A DNA stretch of 39,678 nt from a bacterium (lineage in GTDB: Bacteria > Electryoneota > AABM5-125-24 > Hatepunaeales > Hatepunaeaceae). Shown piece after piece: positions 4,521-35,906 of the stretch (the stretch's first letter is position 1; each line of letters begins with the position of its first letter). The translations under genes and the position numbers were made by a program. The stretch is from contig JABMRV010000176.1 of assembly GCA_013202285.1 (NCBI GenBank), forward strand, positions 1-39,678. Reading direction: 5' to 3'. The notes under the pieces were generated by a model. It did no database searches and was not told where the DNA came from. It worked only from the letters and a program-made list of their open reading frames with translations.

Positions 4521-5016
4521 GGATTCTGAAAAGAGTGTCAGGTTTCACCATACTTACCGAAAACCTGGCATATCCCATTAACGGAACCTCGTTTCCAAAT
4601 GTCAGGTTGAATCCAACCAGGAAATCAAGTGTATCGCCGGGTGCGCTGAATTTGCGAACAGTATCAGGTACGCTGTTCCATTCCAGGTCGATTCGATCAA
4701 AAGCGTGAAACATACCACCGGTTGCCTTCAGATCCGTCTCCCGAAACCAGCGGTCGGAATGTCCGGCATTAACATCATAATAACGGAATTCAAACGTCTT
4801 ATGGAGGCAATCGGCATAGTGAAGTGAATCCCTGTAATCATACGCCAGGGCAAAGTTATCCAGCAATTCTCCCACGGTGCTTTGGTCGGTCCAGATCTTC
4901 TTACCGACATCTCCCTCGATCGGTGCAAACGGATTCAAACAGCCGGTTATTCCAGCAATTGCAGCAATGGTTAAAATAACTGGCAATCCACGAGTATTTT
5001 TAGAAAAAATTCTCAA
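4489..5016 (-). CDS. Putative lipoprotein, NTF2/SnoaL-like style
   Basis: Lipobox GITGCLNPFAP; VGELLDNFALAYDYRDSLHYADCLHKTFEFRYYD and C-terminal FRILAWRDDF. Confidence 0.6.
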   Translation of the reverse strand: MRIFSKNTRGLPVILTIAAIAGITGCLNPFAPIEGDVGKKIWTDQSTVGELLDNFALAYDYRDSLHYADCLHKTFEFRYYDVNAGHSDRWFRETDLKATGGMFHAFDRIDLEWNSVPDTVRKFSAPGDTLDFLVGFNLTFGNEVPLMGYARFSVSMVKPDTLFRILAWRDDFINE

Positions 5017-6774: not shown

Positions 6775-6840
6775 TCTTCTCCTCTAAATCATTAAATATC
6801 AGTAAATGTAATAAATAGTACCTGTTGAAAAGTCTTTATT

Positions 6841-6953
6841 TTGTCATTCCCGCATTCATTTTGTCATTCCCGCATTCATTTTGTCATTCCCGCGCAGGCG
6901 GGAATCCAGACAAGTTATTGTTATTTCACGGTTACCAGCTTTCATGGGAATGA
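6841..6953. repeat. Dispersed palindromic repeat (copy 1) preceded by 20-bp tandem truncated copies
   Basis: ttttgtcattcccgcattca repeated, then cattcccgcgcaggcgggaatccagacaagttattgttattt...ctttcatgggaatga. Confidence 0.85.
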
Positions 6954-6967
6954 TAATATTTCGTTCC

Positions 6968-7076: not shown

Positions 7077-7295
7077 TTATTCCACCGGACGCTTGAAAAC
7101 GAAAAAATCCTTGTGAACATCGGGCTTTGAAAGATTGTACGCATTCACCATTTCCCACCCTTCAGAGCCGAGCTGGTTTATGTACTCCCAGAGATTAGGT
7201 CTTTCACTAAGAGGTTCATTATTGACTTTCATCGCACGAGGTTTGGTTGCGGATAATAAGTAACCTTCAAGATATAGATATTCCCACTTCTGCAT
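7077..7295 (-). CDS. Small DUF4177-like protein
   Basis: MQKWEYLYLEGYL...LWEYINQLGSEGWEMVNAYNLS...FFVFKRPV, the KWEY/LG.EGWE layout. Confidence 0.65.
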   Translation of the reverse strand: MQKWEYLYLEGYLLSATKPRAMKVNNEPLSERPNLWEYINQLGSEGWEMVNAYNLSKPDVHKDFFVFKRPVE

Positions 7296-14043: not shown

Positions 14044-14093
14044 TAGTTTTCCTTATGATATTATGAGTGTGTTGAAAAAGTTCTATCATGTCA

Positions 14094-14197
14094 TTCCCGC
14101 GCTACTTTGTCATTCCCGCTACTTTAGTCATTCCCGCGCAGGCGGGAATCCAGACAAGTTATTGTTATTTTTAGGATTCAGGCTTTCGTCGGAATGA
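14094..14197. repeat. Dispersed palindromic repeat (copy 2) preceded by truncated left ends
   Basis: Three gtcattcccgc starts, the last giving the full cattcccgcgcaggcgggaatccagacaagttattgttattt...ctttcgtcggaatga. Confidence 0.85.
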
Positions 14198-14304
14198 TAA
14201 CATTAGATGAAATCCTTCAGATCCGGTACATTCTCAATAAGTACTACTTAGATCTCATCCCGAAGCTTCGGGATGACACAACAAAATCTGCGTAAAGAAA
14301 CTCG

Positions 14305-15251: not shown

Positions 15252-16148
15252 TTACTTGAAAAAATCAATCAGCAGCGAGGCGATTTCCAGACCGATTCTG
15301 GCTTGAGCCTCACCGGTCGATGCACCTATATGCGGCGTTACACTGACCTTCGGATGACCGACCAGATCTGCCTTCGGCTCAGGTTCGCCCACGAAGACAT
15401 CCACACCGGCGCCTGTAAGCTTTCCCTCATTCAAGGCGGTAATCAGAGCATCTTCATCAACCGTACCGCCGCGTGAGCAGTTGATTAGGAAAGCGCCGTC
15501 CCTCATCGAGGTAAACTCAGCACCGCTCAACACGAAACCTGCCGGATCGACCGGTATGTGCAGGGACAGGTAGTCAGCCTGCGCCAGTACATCCTGTTTC
15601 GGGAGTAGAGTCACATCCAGATCGACCGATTCAACGTATGGATCGTATGCTATAACCTTCATACCAAGCGCCAGCGCCTTCTTTGCCAGCGATTGACCGA
15701 TCCTGCCGATACCAAGTATTCCGAGTGTTTTCCCGGCAATCTCGCTTCCCTTGTACTGTTTCTTGTTCCACTGACCGTTACGCATGGTCAGGTTTGCCGG
15801 TACAATATGACGAGCGAGTGCGAACATGTGAGCCATAGCCAGCTCTGCTACAGAATCAGAACTCGCTGCCGGTGTGTTCATGACCTTTACACCCTTCTCT
15901 TCGGCATACTTGACGTCGATGTTATCCACACCGACGCCGCCGCGGACGATTGCTTTCAGATTGGGAATCCCCGCGTCGATTATATTTTCACGTACTTTCG
16001 TTGCGCTGCGGACGACGATTGCGTCATATTCAGCGATTCGACTCTCCAGTTCGTCTTGTGGAATCTTTGTATCTGATACTTCATGTCCGGCATCTCGCAG
16101 TATCTGCATACCTTCAGCGGACATACCGTCGTTTACTAATATTTTCAA
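15252..16148 (-). CDS. serA: D-3-phosphoglycerate dehydrogenase (short form, no ACT domain)
   Basis: GILGIGRIGQSLAKKALALGMKVIAYDP, INCSRGGTVDEDALI, TPHIGASTGEAQ. Confidence 0.88.
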   Translation of the reverse strand: MKILVNDGMSAEGMQILRDAGHEVSDTKIPQDELESRIAEYDAIVVRSATKVRENIIDAGIPNLKAIVRGGVGVDNIDVKYAEEKGVKVMNTPAASSDSVAELAMAHMFALARHIVPANLTMRNGQWNKKQYKGSEIAGKTLGILGIGRIGQSLAKKALALGMKVIAYDPYVESVDLDVTLLPKQDVLAQADYLSLHIPVDPAGFVLSGAEFTSMRDGAFLINCSRGGTVDEDALITALNEGKLTGAGVDVFVGEPEPKADLVGHPKVSVTPHIGASTGEAQARIGLEIASLLIDFFK

Positions 16149-16255: not shown

Positions 16256-17346
16256 CATCTGTTCTTACCCATGAATTCCTTCATGAACACGAGTAGGTCT
16301 TCGATGGCTTCTGGTGGAATCGCATTATACATCGAGACTCGAATCCCGCCGACGCTGCGATGCCCCTTCAGACCGTTGAAACCAGCCGTTTTGCCCTCAG
16401 CCACGAACTTCGCTTCGAGATCCTCGCTGGGCAGACGCATGCAGACGTTCATCCAACTGCGGCTGTCCTTATCGACTGGACCACGGTAGAAATCAGCGTT
16501 ATCATCCATGAAGCCGTACAGCATGTCAGCTTTCCTGCGATTGCGGGCTTCCATTGCGTCGAGACCGCCCATATCATCCAACCAGTGCAGCACCCTGTTC
16601 ATGAAGAAGATACCGAAAGTGTTACACGTATTGTACAGGGAGTTTTTCTCCACATGGGTATGATAATTCAGCATGGTTGTCAGACCACCGCGCGCCGTCT
16701 GCAAGAGATCATCGCGGATTATTACCAGCGTAACTCCCGATGGTCCGAGGTTCTTCTGAGCACCGGCGTAGATCATCGCAAAAGGGCTGGTGTCAAAACG
16801 ATGTGAGAAGATATCGCTGGACATATCGCTCACTATCGGCACATTCCCGGTATCGGGGAACTCAAGGAACTGCGTGCCTTTAATAGTATTGTTGCTGGTG
16901 ATATGGACGTAGGCTGCATTTTCCGTCAGCTTAAGTTCATGCTGTTTGGGCAGCCGCATGAAATTAACTTCGTTTCCGTCGAAGGCGATGTTTACGTTTC
17001 CGAAAAGTTTCGCCTCCTTGATCGCCTTGGTTGACCATGAACCGGTATTGATATAATCCGCGGTTTTTCCTTCGAGGAGGAAATTCATGGGCATCATGGC
17101 AAACTGCAACGATGCACCGCCCTGCAGAAACAATACATGATATTCATCACCGAGTTCGAACAGCTTCTTCACCATAGATACGGTATCATTATGAATCGCA
17201 TCGTATTCCTTGGAGCGATGCGACCATTCCATAATGTTCATGCCTGTGTTCTGATAGTTGAACCAGTTCTCATGAATGTATTCAAGAACTTCCAGCGGAA
17301 CCGCTGCCGGTCCGGCGTTGAAATTCCAGATTCTGTCGTATTTCAT
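16255..17346 (-). CDS. serC: Phosphoserine aminotransferase
   Basis: WNFNAGPAAVPLEVLEYIHENWFNYQNTGMNIMEWSHRSKEY...SDMSSDIFSHRFDTSPFAMIYAGAQKNLGPSGVTLVIIR. Confidence 0.95.
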   Translation of the reverse strand: MKYDRIWNFNAGPAAVPLEVLEYIHENWFNYQNTGMNIMEWSHRSKEYDAIHNDTVSMVKKLFELGDEYHVLFLQGGASLQFAMMPMNFLLEGKTADYINTGSWSTKAIKEAKLFGNVNIAFDGNEVNFMRLPKQHELKLTENAAYVHITSNNTIKGTQFLEFPDTGNVPIVSDMSSDIFSHRFDTSPFAMIYAGAQKNLGPSGVTLVIIRDDLLQTARGGLTTMLNYHTHVEKNSLYNTCNTFGIFFMNRVLHWLDDMGGLDAMEARNRRKADMLYGFMDDNADFYRGPVDKDSRSWMNVCMRLPSEDLEAKFVAEGKTAGFNGLKGHRSVGGIRVSMYNAIPPEAIEDLLVFMKEFMGKNR

Positions 17347-17373
17347 TTGAGTTGTTCTCCTTAAAGCAATGGA

Positions 17374-19119
17374 CTAAGTTACTAATAATTCAATTTTATC
17401 AAAAAGGTTTATAATATCTTGGTGTATTTCCTTATTCGTCATTGCTCCTGCTACTGCTTCCCGATTTAAGCTAAGTCCCGAAAAACTTTGTTGCAAACGA
17501 TTGAAAAGAGATTCATCCGAGTGAAACAACAATTCTTTACCATTGACTACTTTAAATACGTTTGCATCTAAGCTTCTCCAATCCTTATTTCGTGGTAAAG
17601 TGAGGTTTTCATCGGTAAAAAATGTATCTATGACCTGATGATAAGGAATTGCAAATAAATCATCTGTAACGTTCAGCATTTGTCGTAATGCCCTTCTCCA
17701 AGCGTCTGGAACAAGAAGATAATTTTCGATGTTCTTTCGTTTCCATTCAAAGAGAACCGCATTATCCTTATCAGGATGGAAAGCTGTTTCTTTCGAATCA
17801 TAATCAAACACTACCAAATGTTTCACTTTCGGGATGATTAACCTTAGTGATTTAAAATGTTTCTCGGCTCTTTCCAGCATTGTTTTTTTATCACCCCCGT
17901 GCATGCTGCGGAAATAAATTCTTCTGATATATTCGTCATATTCGAGTATGTTTGCCCATTTTCTGATTATTCGCTCATCGTTATCCCCCTCGACATATAC
18001 TATATAGGGTGAGGAACGTAAGCTCGTAATTTCTTGGTTTGATACTTCAGACATTGCTCTGATGACGTCTGGTTTGGAGGATTCTCGAGTTGGTTTGCCA
18101 CTCAATAGAGAGATGAACCTGTTTGCATCGACACCTCTTATGAGTTCCTCAGAGTGAGTCGCTATTATAAATTGAATACCGCGTTCTTGTGACATTTTGT
18201 CAAAGTAATCCAAAATAACTCGTTGAAGGTTGACATGAAGGTGCGCATCGGGTTCATCTATCAGGATGGTAGTAGGCTTAAAACCGTAGAGAAAAGCCAG
18301 CAATGTCAGGGTCTGATGAAATCCGCTGCCACCGGCAATAATATCATAGTTTTTTTTGTTTTCTACATACTCACATTTTATCTGGGTATCGACATGTCTT
18401 TCATATTCGGGTTTGTTAAGATCAACATTGAACCACTTACTAATGACCTCAGATATCTGACGCCAGTATTCATGATCATTTTCCTTATCTTTCTTTGTCG
18501 CCTCCTCTTCCTTTATTTTCTCTTCTTTCTGTTTAACTAACAACATCAAATTTCTCAAGATACTTCCTGGTTGACCCTTGCCAACTTGTTTCCTAAGTAC
18601 AGATATATCTCTCCACTCCTCAACTGGTTCTAATCCTGAGAATGGCGGTACGTAAGCGACAACGGGTAAAACCTTTTCCTTTTTACGAAAATCTGCCCAA
18701 CCTTCTGAGGGAATTGCAAATACCGATTGGGGTGAGTTATATCTTAATTTGGTACCAAATTCTTTTTCTATTCCATCACTTTCACGCCAAGTTACATTAA
18801 TCTCGATAAGAATATATTCCTGCTTTTTCTTATCACTTCTATTAATTGGTGTATATTTTCTATCGACTTTCTCGTTCCAGAGCAAATTGAATTCAGGAAC
18901 GGGAACTGCTGTAAAATTCGGCAATACGATCTGAATACCTGATTTACCTGTTCGCTTTGTACGACGGAATTCATCAATACAGAATTGCCAGATCGCCAAA
19001 GCTTGCAATATGGTACTCTTGCCGCAATTATTCTGACCAACGAGCAGGTCAAAGTTTGTGAAACTGTAAGTCTGTTCTTTAATGCTTTTAAAATTTCTGA
19101 TTACTAATTTCGTTATCAT
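17374..19119 (-). CDS. OLD-family ATP-dependent endonuclease (ABC-type ATPase + TOPRIM)
   Basis: Walker A GQNNCGKST, signature GGSGFHQTLTLLA, Walker B TILIDEPDAHLHVNLQ, TOPRIM YVEGDNDERIIRKW and VVFDYDSKE. Confidence 0.88.
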   Translation of the reverse strand: MITKLVIRNFKSIKEQTYSFTNFDLLVGQNNCGKSTILQALAIWQFCIDEFRRTKRTGKSGIQIVLPNFTAVPVPEFNLLWNEKVDRKYTPINRSDKKKQEYILIEINVTWRESDGIEKEFGTKLRYNSPQSVFAIPSEGWADFRKKEKVLPVVAYVPPFSGLEPVEEWRDISVLRKQVGKGQPGSILRNLMLLVKQKEEKIKEEEATKKDKENDHEYWRQISEVISKWFNVDLNKPEYERHVDTQIKCEYVENKKNYDIIAGGSGFHQTLTLLAFLYGFKPTTILIDEPDAHLHVNLQRVILDYFDKMSQERGIQFIIATHSEELIRGVDANRFISLLSGKPTRESSKPDVIRAMSEVSNQEITSLRSSPYIVYVEGDNDERIIRKWANILEYDEYIRRIYFRSMHGGDKKTMLERAEKHFKSLRLIIPKVKHLVVFDYDSKETAFHPDKDNAVLFEWKRKNIENYLLVPDAWRRALRQMLNVTDDLFAIPYHQVIDTFFTDENLTLPRNKDWRSLDANVFKVVNGKELLFHSDESLFNRLQQSFSGLSLNREAVAGAMTNKEIHQDIINLFDKIELLVT

Positions 19120-19164
19120 AACATCTTCCTCCCTATGCCTTCCCCAATATTCCAGCCACGAACG

Positions 19165-19212
19165 TCAAGCCGCCGGTCCGGGATTGAAGTTCCAGATTCT
19201 TTCGTATTTCAT
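19165..19212 (-). pseudogene. Relic of serC 5' end (15 codons then TGA)
   Basis: Reverse-strand ATGAAATACGAAAGAATCTGGAACTTCAATCCCGGACCGGCGGCTTGA = MKYERIWNFNPGPAA*, versus serC MKYDRIWNFNAGPAA; preceded by AGGAGG. Confidence 0.8.
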
Positions 19213-19266
19213 TTTAAGGTTGACCTCCTGAAACATTGTATGTAAGTTTTTTGTTAAATTTCTTAA

Positions 19267-19371
19267 TTACTTTTCTCTTTTAGATCTTAAAGCAATCCGC
19301 AAGCACCACAGGAATCCTCCGTAGAGAACCACGCAGCCGAAGACCAACATAATCCACGCTGAAACAGGCAT
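19267..19371 (-). CDS. MetS-like NSS transporter small subunit (34 aa)
   Basis: MPVSAWIMLVFGCVVLYGGFLWCLRIALRSKREK*, single TM helix, start overlaps the stop of the NSS transporter; matches the methionine/alanine importer small-subunit pattern. Confidence 0.8.
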   Translation of the reverse strand: MPVSAWIMLVFGCVVLYGGFLWCLRIALRSKREK

Positions 19372-20861
19372 TATTGCACCTCCTTGCGTTTGAATTTAAT
19401 GCCGAGGAAGACTGAGATCGCAATCACCAGGATAATCATCCCCCAGCCACCGATCCAGTTAGCCCAGACAGGATAACCACCATAGGGTTCAGTGATACCT
19501 TTGATGAGAGATGAAATTAAAAAGTAACCCAAAATCAGTGGAGTAATAAACATTATGCAGATATCCCACCAGATCCCGATCCTTACTTCCGATGTTTCAT
19601 TTATCTCTCGGCGTAACTTCCTTGCCCCGAAAAACCATCCGATTACTATGCACTCCACCAACGCGATGGTCACTAAACCATAGTCGGACACGTAGTGATC
19701 TACGATGTCCAGCCAGTAGAGTCCTCCACGAGTGATGAATAACATTCCGATGATAAAACCTATGATGGATATCCATATTACAACCTTGATGTGCGTAATG
19801 CCAAGCGCATCTTTTAAGGGTGTGGCAAATCCTTCCACGAGGGAGAACGCCGAATCTATTCCCAGTGTCAGGAGCATAAAAAAGAACAGCACGCCAAAAA
19901 ACGGAGCCCAGAATGGTAGCTGTGAAATGATAGTGGGATAGGTTATGAATGCCAGGTCAGGTCCTGATTCAACGACGTCCTGTACAGGAACTCCCGTTTG
20001 ATAAGCAAGGAAACCGAGGGCTGAGAAAACAGCAAATCCGGCGAAAAAGCTGAATCCACAGTTGAGTAACCCGGTCATAAAAGCATTATTGGAGATATCG
20101 GCATCCTTGGGTAGATAACTGGCGTAGGCAGCAAGCACCGCCATCCCCAGAGACAGGGAAAACAGAACCTGTCCATAAGCCGCCAGCCAGACTCGCGGAT
20201 CAGCGAGCTTGCTGAAATCCGGTTGAAGATAATAGGTCACACCATCCACCGCACCGGGCAGGGTCAATCCTCGAATTGCCAGGATCACAAGGCAGAGCAC
20301 CGGTAAAGGTACCGTCACCATCACAACCTTTCCCACCGACTTGATGCCCTTCCAAAGAATTGCCACTATTGCAGCCCAGGTCAGTACAAGTCCGATTAGA
20401 AGAGGACCCTGGATAGCGCCCAGAACACCGGGACCGGATGACATGTTAAGAACGTGTTCTCTGAAGAAACTTCCAGCATCGTCGCCCCATGCCAATTTCA
20501 AGGAATACCAGATATAATCCCACGACCAAGCCATAATCGCACAGTAATATGTAACGATTGTAAAGGCACACAGACAAGCGAGCCAACCCGCCCAAGCCAT
20601 AAAGGGTCGTATAGACTCAAATGCTTGTGGAGCGCCTCCCTGTGCGCGTTTACCCATCACAAATTCCAGCATTAACAGCGGAAAACCACAGGTGAAAAGG
20701 GCAAAGAAGTAAGGGATGAGAAACGCTCCGCCGCCGTTCTCATAGCAGATGTAAGGGAACCGCCAGACATTACCAAGCCCGATGGCGGATCCCACCGCCG
20801 CCATTATAAATCCTGTGCGCGACGCCCAGTTTTCCCGTGAAATTGTCATGTTAAATCCCAT
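19371..20861 (-). CDS. Neurotransmitter:sodium symporter (NSS/SNF) family transporter
   Basis: RENWASRTGFIMAAVGSAIGLGNVWRFPYICYENGGGAFLIPYFFALF, canonical NSS N-terminus. Confidence 0.93.
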   Translation of the reverse strand: MGFNMTISRENWASRTGFIMAAVGSAIGLGNVWRFPYICYENGGGAFLIPYFFALFTCGFPLLMLEFVMGKRAQGGAPQAFESIRPFMAWAGWLACLCAFTIVTYYCAIMAWSWDYIWYSLKLAWGDDAGSFFREHVLNMSSGPGVLGAIQGPLLIGLVLTWAAIVAILWKGIKSVGKVVMVTVPLPVLCLVILAIRGLTLPGAVDGVTYYLQPDFSKLADPRVWLAAYGQVLFSLSLGMAVLAAYASYLPKDADISNNAFMTGLLNCGFSFFAGFAVFSALGFLAYQTGVPVQDVVESGPDLAFITYPTIISQLPFWAPFFGVLFFFMLLTLGIDSAFSLVEGFATPLKDALGITHIKVVIWISIIGFIIGMLFITRGGLYWLDIVDHYVSDYGLVTIALVECIVIGWFFGARKLRREINETSEVRIGIWWDICIMFITPLILGYFLISSLIKGITEPYGGYPVWANWIGGWGMIILVIAISVFLGIKFKRKEVQ

Positions 20862-25444: not shown

Positions 25445-26306
25445 TAATTTTTCCCTTCTCAGCGAGCTTATCAAGTCTGCATTTATGGTAAAGGTCCAAC
25501 GATTCCTTCTCCTGTTTGATGTATGCTCCCTGGCGCAGTATCAGCTCTTCATAGTTAACCAGATGTCCGTCGAATTCAGGTCCATCCACGCATACAAAAC
25601 GAGTATCATCTCCAACTGTAACTCTGCAACCGCCGCACATGCCGGTTCCATCGACCATTACAGAGTTCAGGCTGACCACGGTCTTCAGATCGTATTCACG
25701 GGTAAGATTGCTGACAGCTCTCATCATCACCACCGGACCGATTGCGACGCACAGTGCGATATCCCTTCCTCTATCAAGCAGTTCCTTAAGAGCGTCGGTT
25801 ACAAATCCGTGAATGCCATAGCTACCATCATCCGTTGTGACGATCAATTCATCGGATACCGACGACATCTCATCCTCCATTATCAAAAGGTCTTTATCGC
25901 GAGCGCCGATGATGGAGATGACTTCGTTGCCAGCTTTCTTCATCGCAACGGCGATGGGATATACCGGAGCCACTCCGATACCGCCGCCGATACAGACGAC
26001 TTTGCCAAAGTTTTCTACATGCGTCGGTTTGCCGAGCGGACCGACAATATCGAGAATCTCGTCGCCTACTTCGAGATCGCCCAAGGCGTAGGTTGTCTTG
26101 CCTACTTCCTGAAAAATCAGCCTGATGGTTCCTTCTACCGGATCTGAATCCACAATGGTCAGCGGTATCCTTTCGCCGTATTCGTTAATGCGCAGGATGA
26201 TAAACTGACCTGCTTTCCGTTTGCGGGCTATATGCGGAGAACTTACCGTGATATCCTTGACGCCCTCCGACAAAATATGTTTCTCAAGTATCTCGTTCAT
26301 TACCAT
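25437..26306 (-). CDS. Sulfide/dihydroorotate dehydrogenase-like FAD/NAD-binding protein, NfnA-like
   Basis: GGGIGVAPVYPIAVAMKKAG, MCGGCRVTVGDDTRFVCVDGPEFDGH [2Fe-2S] motif, adjacent to the partner gene with 8-nt overlap. Confidence 0.9.
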   Translation of the reverse strand: MVMNEILEKHILSEGVKDITVSSPHIARKRKAGQFIILRINEYGERIPLTIVDSDPVEGTIRLIFQEVGKTTYALGDLEVGDEILDIVGPLGKPTHVENFGKVVCIGGGIGVAPVYPIAVAMKKAGNEVISIIGARDKDLLIMEDEMSSVSDELIVTTDDGSYGIHGFVTDALKELLDRGRDIALCVAIGPVVMMRAVSNLTREYDLKTVVSLNSVMVDGTGMCGGCRVTVGDDTRFVCVDGPEFDGHLVNYEELILRQGAYIKQEKESLDLYHKCRLDKLAEKGKINV

Positions 26307-27912
26307 CCTTTATATCTATGGATATTTGATTATCCTTGCCTTTTTCACGCTGTGCATTGGCAAATGGTGTTTTACCCCAGGGTAGGTTAGGTCGTTTCCC
26401 GTCAAACATCTCTTCGATTGTCAGTATTTGAATTCTTGGGAATTTGCGTCCCCAAAACTCACTTTCATAGAATCCTGCTGCAACAGCTTCGGTTATCATA
26501 GACTTTGTCGGAGGAGTAAGCGTTAAGAATATTCCTACTGGTTCGTTCTCTCTGTCAAGAACACCAACCAGATCGCGTATATCCCTGACACTCACATTCT
26601 CGCCTCCTTTAACCGAGACGATAGCTCGCTTATAATCCTCGGTGGGTCCGGCGAAGTATGGTATCACCCCGTCTATTCCCCGGTCTGCACCTTTCTTTTT
26701 ACCTGCAACCGGTTGTGCATTTATTCGTGTGAGTCCCCACCACTGGAATTGCCATTTATCCCTGCGTGCAAGATCCCGCGCACTGGCGAGGTCTATCGGT
26801 GCGCCAATAGTCTCAATTTCAATACCTGCAAACGCATCCTGCATACGACGTTCAATCAGATTGATGGCAAGATATGTTATGTCTATACCAATCCAACGTC
26901 GTTCGAGTTTCTGCGCTGCATGAACTGCAGTACCACAGCCACAAAAAGGATCAAGTATAACATCACCAGGATTGGATGAAGCGCTTATTATACGATTCAG
27001 TAATTCAAGCGGCTTTTGTGTCTGAAATCCAAGTCTCTCTTTCGCCTGCGAATTAATTGGAGATATATCAGTCCATAGCGATTGTAACACGGAACCTTTC
27101 GCTTCATCAAGATAGCGTTTAAGTCTAATCCCGCCTCTTTTGGTGTAATGGAGTCGATTTTCTCCATCTAATTTTTTCATAGTAACAAGAGGAACTCTCC
27201 AGAGCGACCTCACGCCTTTAAAAGTGTATTCATACCCTCCACCCGTTAATCCTTTCGCTGTGAGATTATCATCCATCCATATCCTTCCGTCTTTGTCTTC
27301 ATATCTAAAGCGCTTCAGGTATTTCGGACTGTATTCTGAGAATATTTTGTTCCAGGTATAATTCGAACTCTTTGTATAGAACCATATTATATCGATATTT
27401 GAGCCATATTTAATGGGATCGCTGTGAGCCGTAGTTCGCTTCCAGACTATCTCATTTTTGAAATTCGTCGGCCCAAAAACCGAATCGAGTATAACTCGCA
27501 AATAGGAACCTGCCGTAGGATCACAGTGCAGATAAATCGATCCGGTTGATTTTAAGACCCTGTGCAACTCTACTAACCGTACAGCCATCATTACGAGATA
27601 CGCCGTCATATCGTTATGTCCAAAACCATCCACCATCGCTCCCAGCAGTTTAGCGACATCCTGTCGAGAACCTCGCATAACATCATCATAAGCCCGCATT
27701 GTAGAGTCACCCCAATGCCACGAATCCTCAAAAGCCTCAATCTGCGCCTCACTGGCTGCCCCGGATGATTCACGAAAGAGAACATTATAGGATCGTTTAG
27801 AGTTAAAGGGTGGGTCGAGATAAATCAGGTCAATCGACTCGTCGGGGATGTGCTCGCATAAAATATCGAGGTTGTCCCCATAGTACAGAATGTTCGTTTT
27901 GATTTCTGGCAT
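26284..27912 (-). CDS. Beta-class DNA methyltransferase fused to a C-terminal Mrr-like domain
   Basis: DLIYLDPPFNSKRSYNVLF (motif IV), DVILDPFCGCGTAVHAAQKLERRWIGIDI (motif I), C-terminal KGADRGIDGVIPYF...AIVSVKGGENVSVRDIRDLVGVL. Start set to MPEIKTNILYYG. Confidence 0.85.
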   Translation of the reverse strand: MPEIKTNILYYGDNLDILCEHIPDESIDLIYLDPPFNSKRSYNVLFRESSGAASEAQIEAFEDSWHWGDSTMRAYDDVMRGSRQDVAKLLGAMVDGFGHNDMTAYLVMMAVRLVELHRVLKSTGSIYLHCDPTAGSYLRVILDSVFGPTNFKNEIVWKRTTAHSDPIKYGSNIDIIWFYTKSSNYTWNKIFSEYSPKYLKRFRYEDKDGRIWMDDNLTAKGLTGGGYEYTFKGVRSLWRVPLVTMKKLDGENRLHYTKRGGIRLKRYLDEAKGSVLQSLWTDISPINSQAKERLGFQTQKPLELLNRIISASSNPGDVILDPFCGCGTAVHAAQKLERRWIGIDITYLAINLIERRMQDAFAGIEIETIGAPIDLASARDLARRDKWQFQWWGLTRINAQPVAGKKKGADRGIDGVIPYFAGPTEDYKRAIVSVKGGENVSVRDIRDLVGVLDRENEPVGIFLTLTPPTKSMITEAVAAGFYESEFWGRKFPRIQILTIEEMFDGKRPNLPWGKTPFANAQREKGKDNQISIDIKDGNERDT

Positions 27913-28000
27913 TTTATCCTCAATTAACCTGGTTTCCAGCTTATGACGAAATGACATACTGAAAGTAACAGACAGAAATGTCTGTTCCACTTACTTCCTG

Positions 28001-34443: not shown

Positions 34444-34809
34444 TTATTTCTTCAAATTGTTATTGGAATTCTTTTTGCCTGCTTCTATTCTATCCAGTTC
34501 CTTGATCAGAACAGGAAGCTCTTCGATAACTGTTTTCCACACGATATCTTCATCAACGGATAAATAATCATGAGCGATCTTATGTCTCATACCGATAATT
34601 GCTTTCCAGGGAATTTGAGGATGTCTATCACAGAAATCCCTGGATAACTGACTTGCTGCTTCGCCTATAACCAGTATTAAGTATGTCAATGTTCTTCTAA
34701 GCAGTCTGTTCGTATCGTAATCAAAGCGATCTTTGTTTTCTACCGAATCCAGAGCCTCGCGAGCAAAGTCCAGCATATGACCGATATAGATTAAATCATT
34801 CTTCTGCAT
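34444..34809 (-). CDS. HepT-like (DUF86) toxin
   Basis: MRHKIAHDYLSVDEDIVWKTV carries the RX4HXY motif; overlaps upstream nucleotidyltransferase gene. Confidence 0.85.
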   Translation of the reverse strand: MQKNDLIYIGHMLDFAREALDSVENKDRFDYDTNRLLRRTLTYLILVIGEAASQLSRDFCDRHPQIPWKAIIGMRHKIAHDYLSVDEDIVWKTVIEELPVLIKELDRIEAGKKNSNNNLKK

Positions 34810-35104
34810 AAAGAGGCTCTAAATCTTTCAAAACCAACTCACGAATCCGGTAATTCAGAAACTTGGATGTTATCAGATCCAGTCGTCTTCCTCCCATTAA
34901 AACCGAAAGTTCACTCTCAATCTGATATAATCGGATGAATCCGGGCACATTATTTGGATCAAATGTGACCAGTACATCCACATCGCTGTCACCACGAAAA
35001 TCATCCCGCAAGACAGAGCCAAACAATGCCAGCTCGGTTATTTTCCATTTCTTACAGAATTTCTTGATCCTGCCGGAGTCTATTTCAATTTGTGCTCTCA
35101 CCAA
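34796..35104 (-). CDS. MntA-like nucleotidyltransferase antitoxin
   Basis: LFGSVLRDDFRGDSDVDVLVTF: GS...DxD minimal nucleotidyltransferase motif; 14-nt overlap with the HepT-like gene. Confidence 0.87.
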   Translation of the reverse strand: MVRAQIEIDSGRIKKFCKKWKITELALFGSVLRDDFRGDSDVDVLVTFDPNNVPGFIRLYQIESELSVLMGGRRLDLITSKFLNYRIRELVLKDLEPLYAEE

Positions 35105-35174
35105 TTACTCTACTTTCTCCTCTCTTATCAAGCATCCTAAACTATTCCAGTAGGCGGGATAATCCTGCCCTGCT

Positions 35175-35906
35175 TTAAATCCGGCAGGGCCAATAATACT
35201 TCACATCACCTGCAGGAAAAATAAGATTATCCTGCATTTCCCCATCATCCATTAAATCAGTTTTCCAACATCCACTCATTCCTTTCCATGTTGCCCATGC
35301 TGAAATCAGAGCATCCCATTCGTGGTCGTTTTTACATCCAATAGATTTCTTAATACCAAGCTTACCTGTTAGCCAATTATCCATATCAGTTTTATCATTA
35401 CTATAATCATGGATTTTTTCACAACTTCTCATAGCATGATACAATACCTTCGGATGCGTTTCATTTATTATAATGTTTGGGAAAATTGCCCTAAGTCTGA
35501 TAGCTAACGCCATTCCCTGCACAGCCATTGCACCAAATGTCGAATTTGATGAAAGCACACTATTACTTATTTTTCTTGTTTTGCTAACATCATTTGAAGT
35601 TATCCTATTGAATTCACTTTTATATGTATCCTTTAATAGGTTATCCATGCTTCTCCAACCTGCTTCACCCGTCGACCAAGATAAGAAAGCATCTATACCT
35701 ACGCCATGTAGTTGAACTATCTTTTGGTCACCTAAAATCCATTCGATCACTTCGTCCACATAATTGCATGTTTTCAACCGGACATCTACAACGACGGAGT
35801 TTGAAATTTCGATTAATGCAATTCCGTTGGCATTCTTTCCGCCTGGATCATAACCAAGAATATTTAAATCTTCATCGCTCACTTTCACACTTTCACACTT
35901 GCTCAC
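35175..35906 (-). CDS. DUF429-like (predicted RNase H-fold) protein
   Basis: LGYDPGGKNANGIALIEI...GVGIDAFLSWSTGEAGWRSMD...HPKVLYHAM...CKNDHEWDALISAWATW. Confidence 0.65.
   Translation of the reverse strand: MSKCESVKVSDEDLNILGYDPGGKNANGIALIEISNSVVVDVRLKTCNYVDEVIEWILGDQKIVQLHGVGIDAFLSWSTGEAGWRSMDNLLKDTYKSEFNRITSNDVSKTRKISNSVLSSNSTFGAMAVQGMALAIRLRAIFPNIIINETHPKVLYHAMRSCEKIHDYSNDKTDMDNWLTGKLGIKKSIGCKNDHEWDALISAWATWKGMSGCWKTDLMDDGEMQDNLIFPAGDVKYYWPCRI

Follow-up and report, generated by a model that had tools for sequence, protein, structure and literature searches.

We describe here an OLD-family ATPase/nuclease gene (hereafter OLD) that lies between two different 5' ends of serC in a 39,678-nt stretch of DNA, called the window below, from a bacterium of the Hatepunaeaceae (contig JABMRV010000176.1, assembly GCA_013202285.1). 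The two 5' ends fit exactly around OLD, which has a foreign base composition and is absent at the serC locus of the relatives. The event at serC is real and local. It probably reflects a single recombination, a one-off and not some new class of mobile element. Its logic is a known one, varied here in that a single gene is inserted and an integrase is lacking. The locus offers a clean snapshot of a lone defence-type gene entering a housekeeping operon, with the target intact and no visible mobile-element machinery.

Organization of the serC locus

On the minus strand, the genes run from a symporter gene through the serC relic, OLD and the intact serC to serA (Table 1). A first-pass annotation had placed OLD between two serC 5' ends, and its coordinates proved correct. 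The intact serC is 61-83% identical to the serC genes of family relatives, and the serA-like gene, which is a conserved neighbour of serC in them, anchors the locus. The insert holds hardly more than the OLD ORF: the second copy of the repeat begins 2 nt past the OLD stop codon, 27 nt separate this stop from the serC ATG, and the relic stop lies 45 nt ahead of the OLD start. The relic ORF reads ATG AAA TAC GAA AGA ATC TGG AAC TTC AAT CCC GGA CCG GCG GCT TGA.

An intact ORF of 15 codons that has a strong AGGAGG and ends so close to OLD might be a retained leader coupling OLD translation to the serC leader, and not debris, its origin being then a secondary matter. No terminator-like site was called from the relic to serC, as such a leader would have it. 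However, no homologous leader was found in the relatives and one genome only carries the relic, and we consider this reading quite improbable.

Table 1. Features of the serC locus in the window.
Feature	Position	Strand	Basis
serA-like phosphoglycerate dehydrogenase, downstream of serC	15252..16148	-	Pfam 2-Hacid_dh + 2-Hacid_dh_C
Intact serC, phosphoserine transaminase, 363 aa	16255..17346	-	NCBIfam TIGR01364, 471.7 bits (cut-off 443.6)
Second repeat copy: Shine-Dalgarno, start and first 15 codons of intact serC	17302..17371	-	Local alignment of OLD flanks
OLD-family ATPase/nuclease gene, 581 aa	17374..19119	-	Pfam, PADLOC, fold match, motifs
Spacer between relic and OLD, with OLD ribosome-binding site GGGAGG	19120..19164	-	Sequence
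serC 5' relic, 15 codons + stop, MKYERIWNFNPGPAA*	19165..19212	-	nhmmer E 2.5e-14 vs serC 5' ends
Upstream part of relic repeat, AGGAGG at ~19224-19229	19213..19238	-	Local alignment; BLAST core to 19233
Sodium:neurotransmitter symporter-type gene, upstream of relic	19371..20861	-	Pfam SNF

The two serC 5' ends

The repeat spans about 65-75 nt, from some 26 nt upstream of the ATG through the Shine-Dalgarno sequence to codon 15. BLAST paired 17303-17365, the core of the second copy, with 19169-19233 (65 columns, 83%, E 2e-11), and the local alignment of the two OLD flanks scored 85, the best of 200 shuffles being 34. In an nhmmer search with a profile of serC 5' ends made without the relic sequence, the relic match stopped at about codon 15-17, and serC similarity was absent from the spacer past about codon 17. 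The two 45-nt segments had been described in the first-pass annotation as having few, mostly synonymous differences and unrelated flanks; the former holds, but the flanks are related upstream of the ATG over the stretch given above.

A degenerate serC-start pattern had 2 matches in this genome, only the two sites flanking OLD, and no more than 1 in any of the 38 other phylum genomes examined, while none of 395 genomes of another phylum had two matches close by on one contig. The pattern search in this genome and the 38 others rules out a general repeat occurring away from serC, an outcome that had been named in advance as contrary to the insertion. The serC start is genuinely duplicated, far beyond what chance would give, and in this genome only.

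Between the two 45-nt coding stretches there are 6 differences, namely four synonymous codons, one D/E and one A/P exchange, and the E, P and A at the variant sites are all found in genuine serC proteins of relatives. At third positions the copies differ in 5/15 cases (0.33); for the same stretch, the serC of the window diverges by 0.32-0.46 from those of the four nearest genera of the family. Since the copies diverge about as much as serC does between genera, the relic resembles part of a different working serC. Compared with the three nearest relatives, the relic shows 5, 6 and 5 differences out of 45 and the intact 5' end 8, 7 and 7. The relic thus appears marginally nearer to them, as would be expected if it is the native copy and the insertion is recent. 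These results support the earlier view of two different serC 5' ends, the second serving the intact gene, and this second copy may have been supplied by the insert. A clear mosaic signal was not found in the serC body, and the first 150 nt of serC are not unusually distant from relatives.

A different explanation is that a staggered break or a tandem duplication produced a second copy of about 70 nt from the serC start, with OLD captured between two copies that drifted afterwards. In this case a donor with its own serC would be unnecessary, and the 77-bp nrtD repeat described below is an actual instance of a long gene-end duplication around an OLD-type insertion. Simulated drift in place kept the start, gained no stop and made at most two amino-acid changes in about 10% of runs, which is the frequency at which it yields differences as mild as these. 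However, the relic, though free to decay, keeps its ATG, frame and Shine-Dalgarno sequence with mostly synonymous or conservative changes, and it is no farther from the relatives than the intact copy. To our knowledge, no transposon makes a target duplication of about 70 nt, which also counts against it. We therefore hold this explanation to be rather unlikely. On these differences, recombination with another functional serC is mildly favoured over a drifted target duplication, 15 codons being too few to settle the ancestry.

The serC locus in relatives

The comparison covered eight family genomes and seven from a sister family, with no genus-mate among them; in a few of these 15, serC lies so near a contig end (a few hundred bases) that the upstream region is only partly readable. 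Neither OLD nor the relic is present at serC in any of them, and nearly all retain the serC-serA order. This rules out a shared ancestral arrangement, and the relatives did not all share relic and OLD, as they would if the first-pass annotation had been wrong about an insertion. That OLD was inserted at the serC start is supported by its AT-richness, by its absence in the readable relatives and by the conserved serC-serA order. The DNA upstream of serC in relatives has similarity to the upstream DNA of neither repeat copy, so it gives no indication of which copy is native. In three relatives, SNF-type genes are found 2-3.5 kb upstream of serC, with weak similarity (30-32% identical) to the symporter of the window.

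Additionally, one family relative (G006, L024:9153-10975) encodes a candidate defence ATPase (PADLOC PDC-M07A, E 1e-60) together with a partner gene; the two lie immediately ahead of serC and follow another symporter-type gene. From this case, defence genes may recurrently settle in the region upstream of serC.

The OLD gene and its homologues

OLD has a GC content of 37.6%; that of the window is 47.3%, that of serC and of the symporter gene 49%, and that of the surroundings 47-49%. Homologues at 49-58% identity lie in other contexts, scattered across many phyla (Proteobacteria, Chlorobiaceae, Bacteroidetes, Bryobacterales, Nitrospirae and others). Because OLD is AT-rich and its homologues are so scattered, it is taken as horizontally acquired. 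There was no OLD match in plasmids or phages, no serC start was found in viral contigs, and two viral contigs carry a truncated OLD homologue; on these results a phage or plasmid carrier was discarded. A search for OLD centred on a second phylum gave no match at E 1e-100.

The closest homologues often belong to an operon in which a type III-like methylase gene precedes OLD and a UvrD-like helicase gene follows it (L057:2229-8857, L041, L042, L043, L044 and L046), the first codons of the helicase overlapping or coming after the OLD stop. At several such loci, inspected by eye, apparently just a short 5' fragment of the helicase is left after OLD. In a genome of the same family (G005, L066:405-3560), a 53% identical OLD is located between lipA-like and odhB-like genes, followed by a truncated nucleotidyltransferase.

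The N-terminal part of the OLD protein is an ABC/SMC-like ATPase (Pfam AAA_15, AAA_21 and SMC_N), and the PADLOC profiles NsnB, AriA, Old and GajA match the protein. The Walker A motif G28xNNxGKS and the Toprim-type residues E377, D381, D439 and D441, in the motifs YVEGxxDER and FDYD, are invariant in 16 homologues. No Toprim Pfam model was called on the protein. Its predicted fold (mean pLDDT 79) matches the OLD of T. scotoductus (6p74) over the full length with E 8e-13 and a TM-score of just 0.28-0.31, and also matches GajA (8sm3) and PtuA entries with low E-values and modest TM-scores. Motifs and predicted fold together indicate a C-terminal Toprim domain.

Class 1 OLD proteins and GajA (Class 2) likewise have an N-terminal ABC ATPase and C-terminal Toprim-type acidic residues, and Class 1 OLD is a single gene, as here (PMC10568477). 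Gabija (Class 2 OLD, GajA-GajB) has a UvrD-like GajB gene adjoining OLD, whereas the neighbours in the window are serC and the symporter gene. The OLD of the window fits none of the named subfamilies well and seems to be a single-gene offshoot of the helicase-linked subfamily. By analogy with the superfamily of ATPase/Toprim nucleases (PMC10568477), OLD is a probable anti-phage nuclease with a putative role in defence.

Origin of the insertion

The best explanation that we can offer, to which we would give an even chance, is that the native serC recombined once with incoming DNA in which OLD stood immediately ahead of a further serC 5' end. Horizontally acquired, OLD would have arrived with this second 5' end right downstream of it; the incoming serC end would have paired with the resident serC, and the far side of OLD would have joined the resident gene at codon 15. 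The route may have been homology-facilitated illegitimate recombination, or a small circle may have integrated by a single crossover. The relic would be what is left of the native 5' end, while the second 5' end keeps serC whole, and the former serC leader would now drive OLD, the relic serving as a small leader ORF. Homology-facilitated illegitimate recombination was described in laboratory systems (PMC3240628), where one end is also anchored by homology and the other joined without it, and where foreign DNA likewise ends up beside a homologous gene with no recombinase gene involved. Here, in contrast, we infer the route from the anatomy, and both the assignment of the native copy and the expression of OLD from the old leader are putative.

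Recombination with DNA carrying OLD and a serC start explains the structure without any special enzyme. The first-pass annotation had mentioned recombination with a foreign serC as its alternative, and this fits at least as well as the logic of SXT elements that it had put first. The collections searched, in which genomes are sparse around this genus, contained no donor with OLD immediately ahead of serC. Should a donor or an empty site come to light, the locus would represent a concrete recombinase-free route for the spread of lone defence genes.

It could also be that an integrase-bearing island of the SXT or dusA type entered serC at its 5' end, provided a substitute for that end and later shrank to OLD. 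SXT/R391 elements at prfC bear an integrase and have the same anatomy as dusA islands. The dusA-specific islands supply the new 5' end of their target and imperfect direct repeats result (PMC4482086), and the serC locus equals them in the insertion at a housekeeping 5' end, the old end left behind, the similar new end and the imperfect repeats. They differ in that the dusA islands bear an integrase and have short attachment sites (19-28 bp in dusA/dusB islands), whereas here one 1.75-kb gene is found with a repeat of about 70 nt and no integrase remnant. The genome does encode two large serine recombinases, on small contigs (L079:290-2125 and L080:2892-4454; G000 contigs C145 and C87), but these are other contigs with no piece of serC, possibly integrative elements unrelated to serC. 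Two tyrosine recombinases of 301 and 303 aa are Xer-sized and lie among housekeeping genes. Furthermore, the ORFs that precede serC in the relatives showed no integrase, serC as an attachment site was not found in the literature, a SerC relative is encoded by only two viral contigs, and none of the 38 phylum genomes has a second serC-start match that would denote recurrence at the same site. Altogether, such a decayed island seems improbable to us. The site-specific logic of SXT-type elements is not borne out, with only OLD in the insert, recombinases unlinked to serC and other OLD loci that look different; the accompanying remark that the cargo is a single putative defence gene with no integrase visible agrees with an insert that lacks a recombinase gene.

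Gene-end duplications at other OLD loci

About 20 homologous OLD loci with readable flanks were checked for flanking gene-end repeats, and just one of them (L058) has a long one. There, a 77-bp direct repeat (4683-4759 and 7090-7166, 97% identical) from the nrtD 3' end encloses a frameshifted OLD homologue and a HicB-like gene. This case differs from that of serC, as another gene is involved and the 3' end is repeated, not the 5' end. Apart from this exception, the idea that OLD cassettes routinely duplicate the 5' end of their target was unsupported in these loci. The other defence-type inserts in the window had no similar flanking duplications.

A broader reading would make the OLD subfamily a set of minimal integrase-free cassettes that enter housekeeping genes via captured ends, the foreign end regenerating the target, with serC (5' end) and nrtD (3' end) as its cases. 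We keep it open on account of these two cases, at a very low probability; unlike as they are, two cases are too few to make a mechanism.

Other features of the window

A HepT-like/nucleotidyltransferase pair and an unassigned 243-aa protein (34444-35906) are inserted between NADH dehydrogenase chain-5-type and chain-4-type genes (nuoL/nuoM-like). Between valS and an oxidoreductase gene, the window encodes a DNA methylase fused to a Mrr-type restriction domain (26284-27990). It also contains an intergenic 138-bp direct repeat, 82% identical, at 6823-6960 and 14070-14204.
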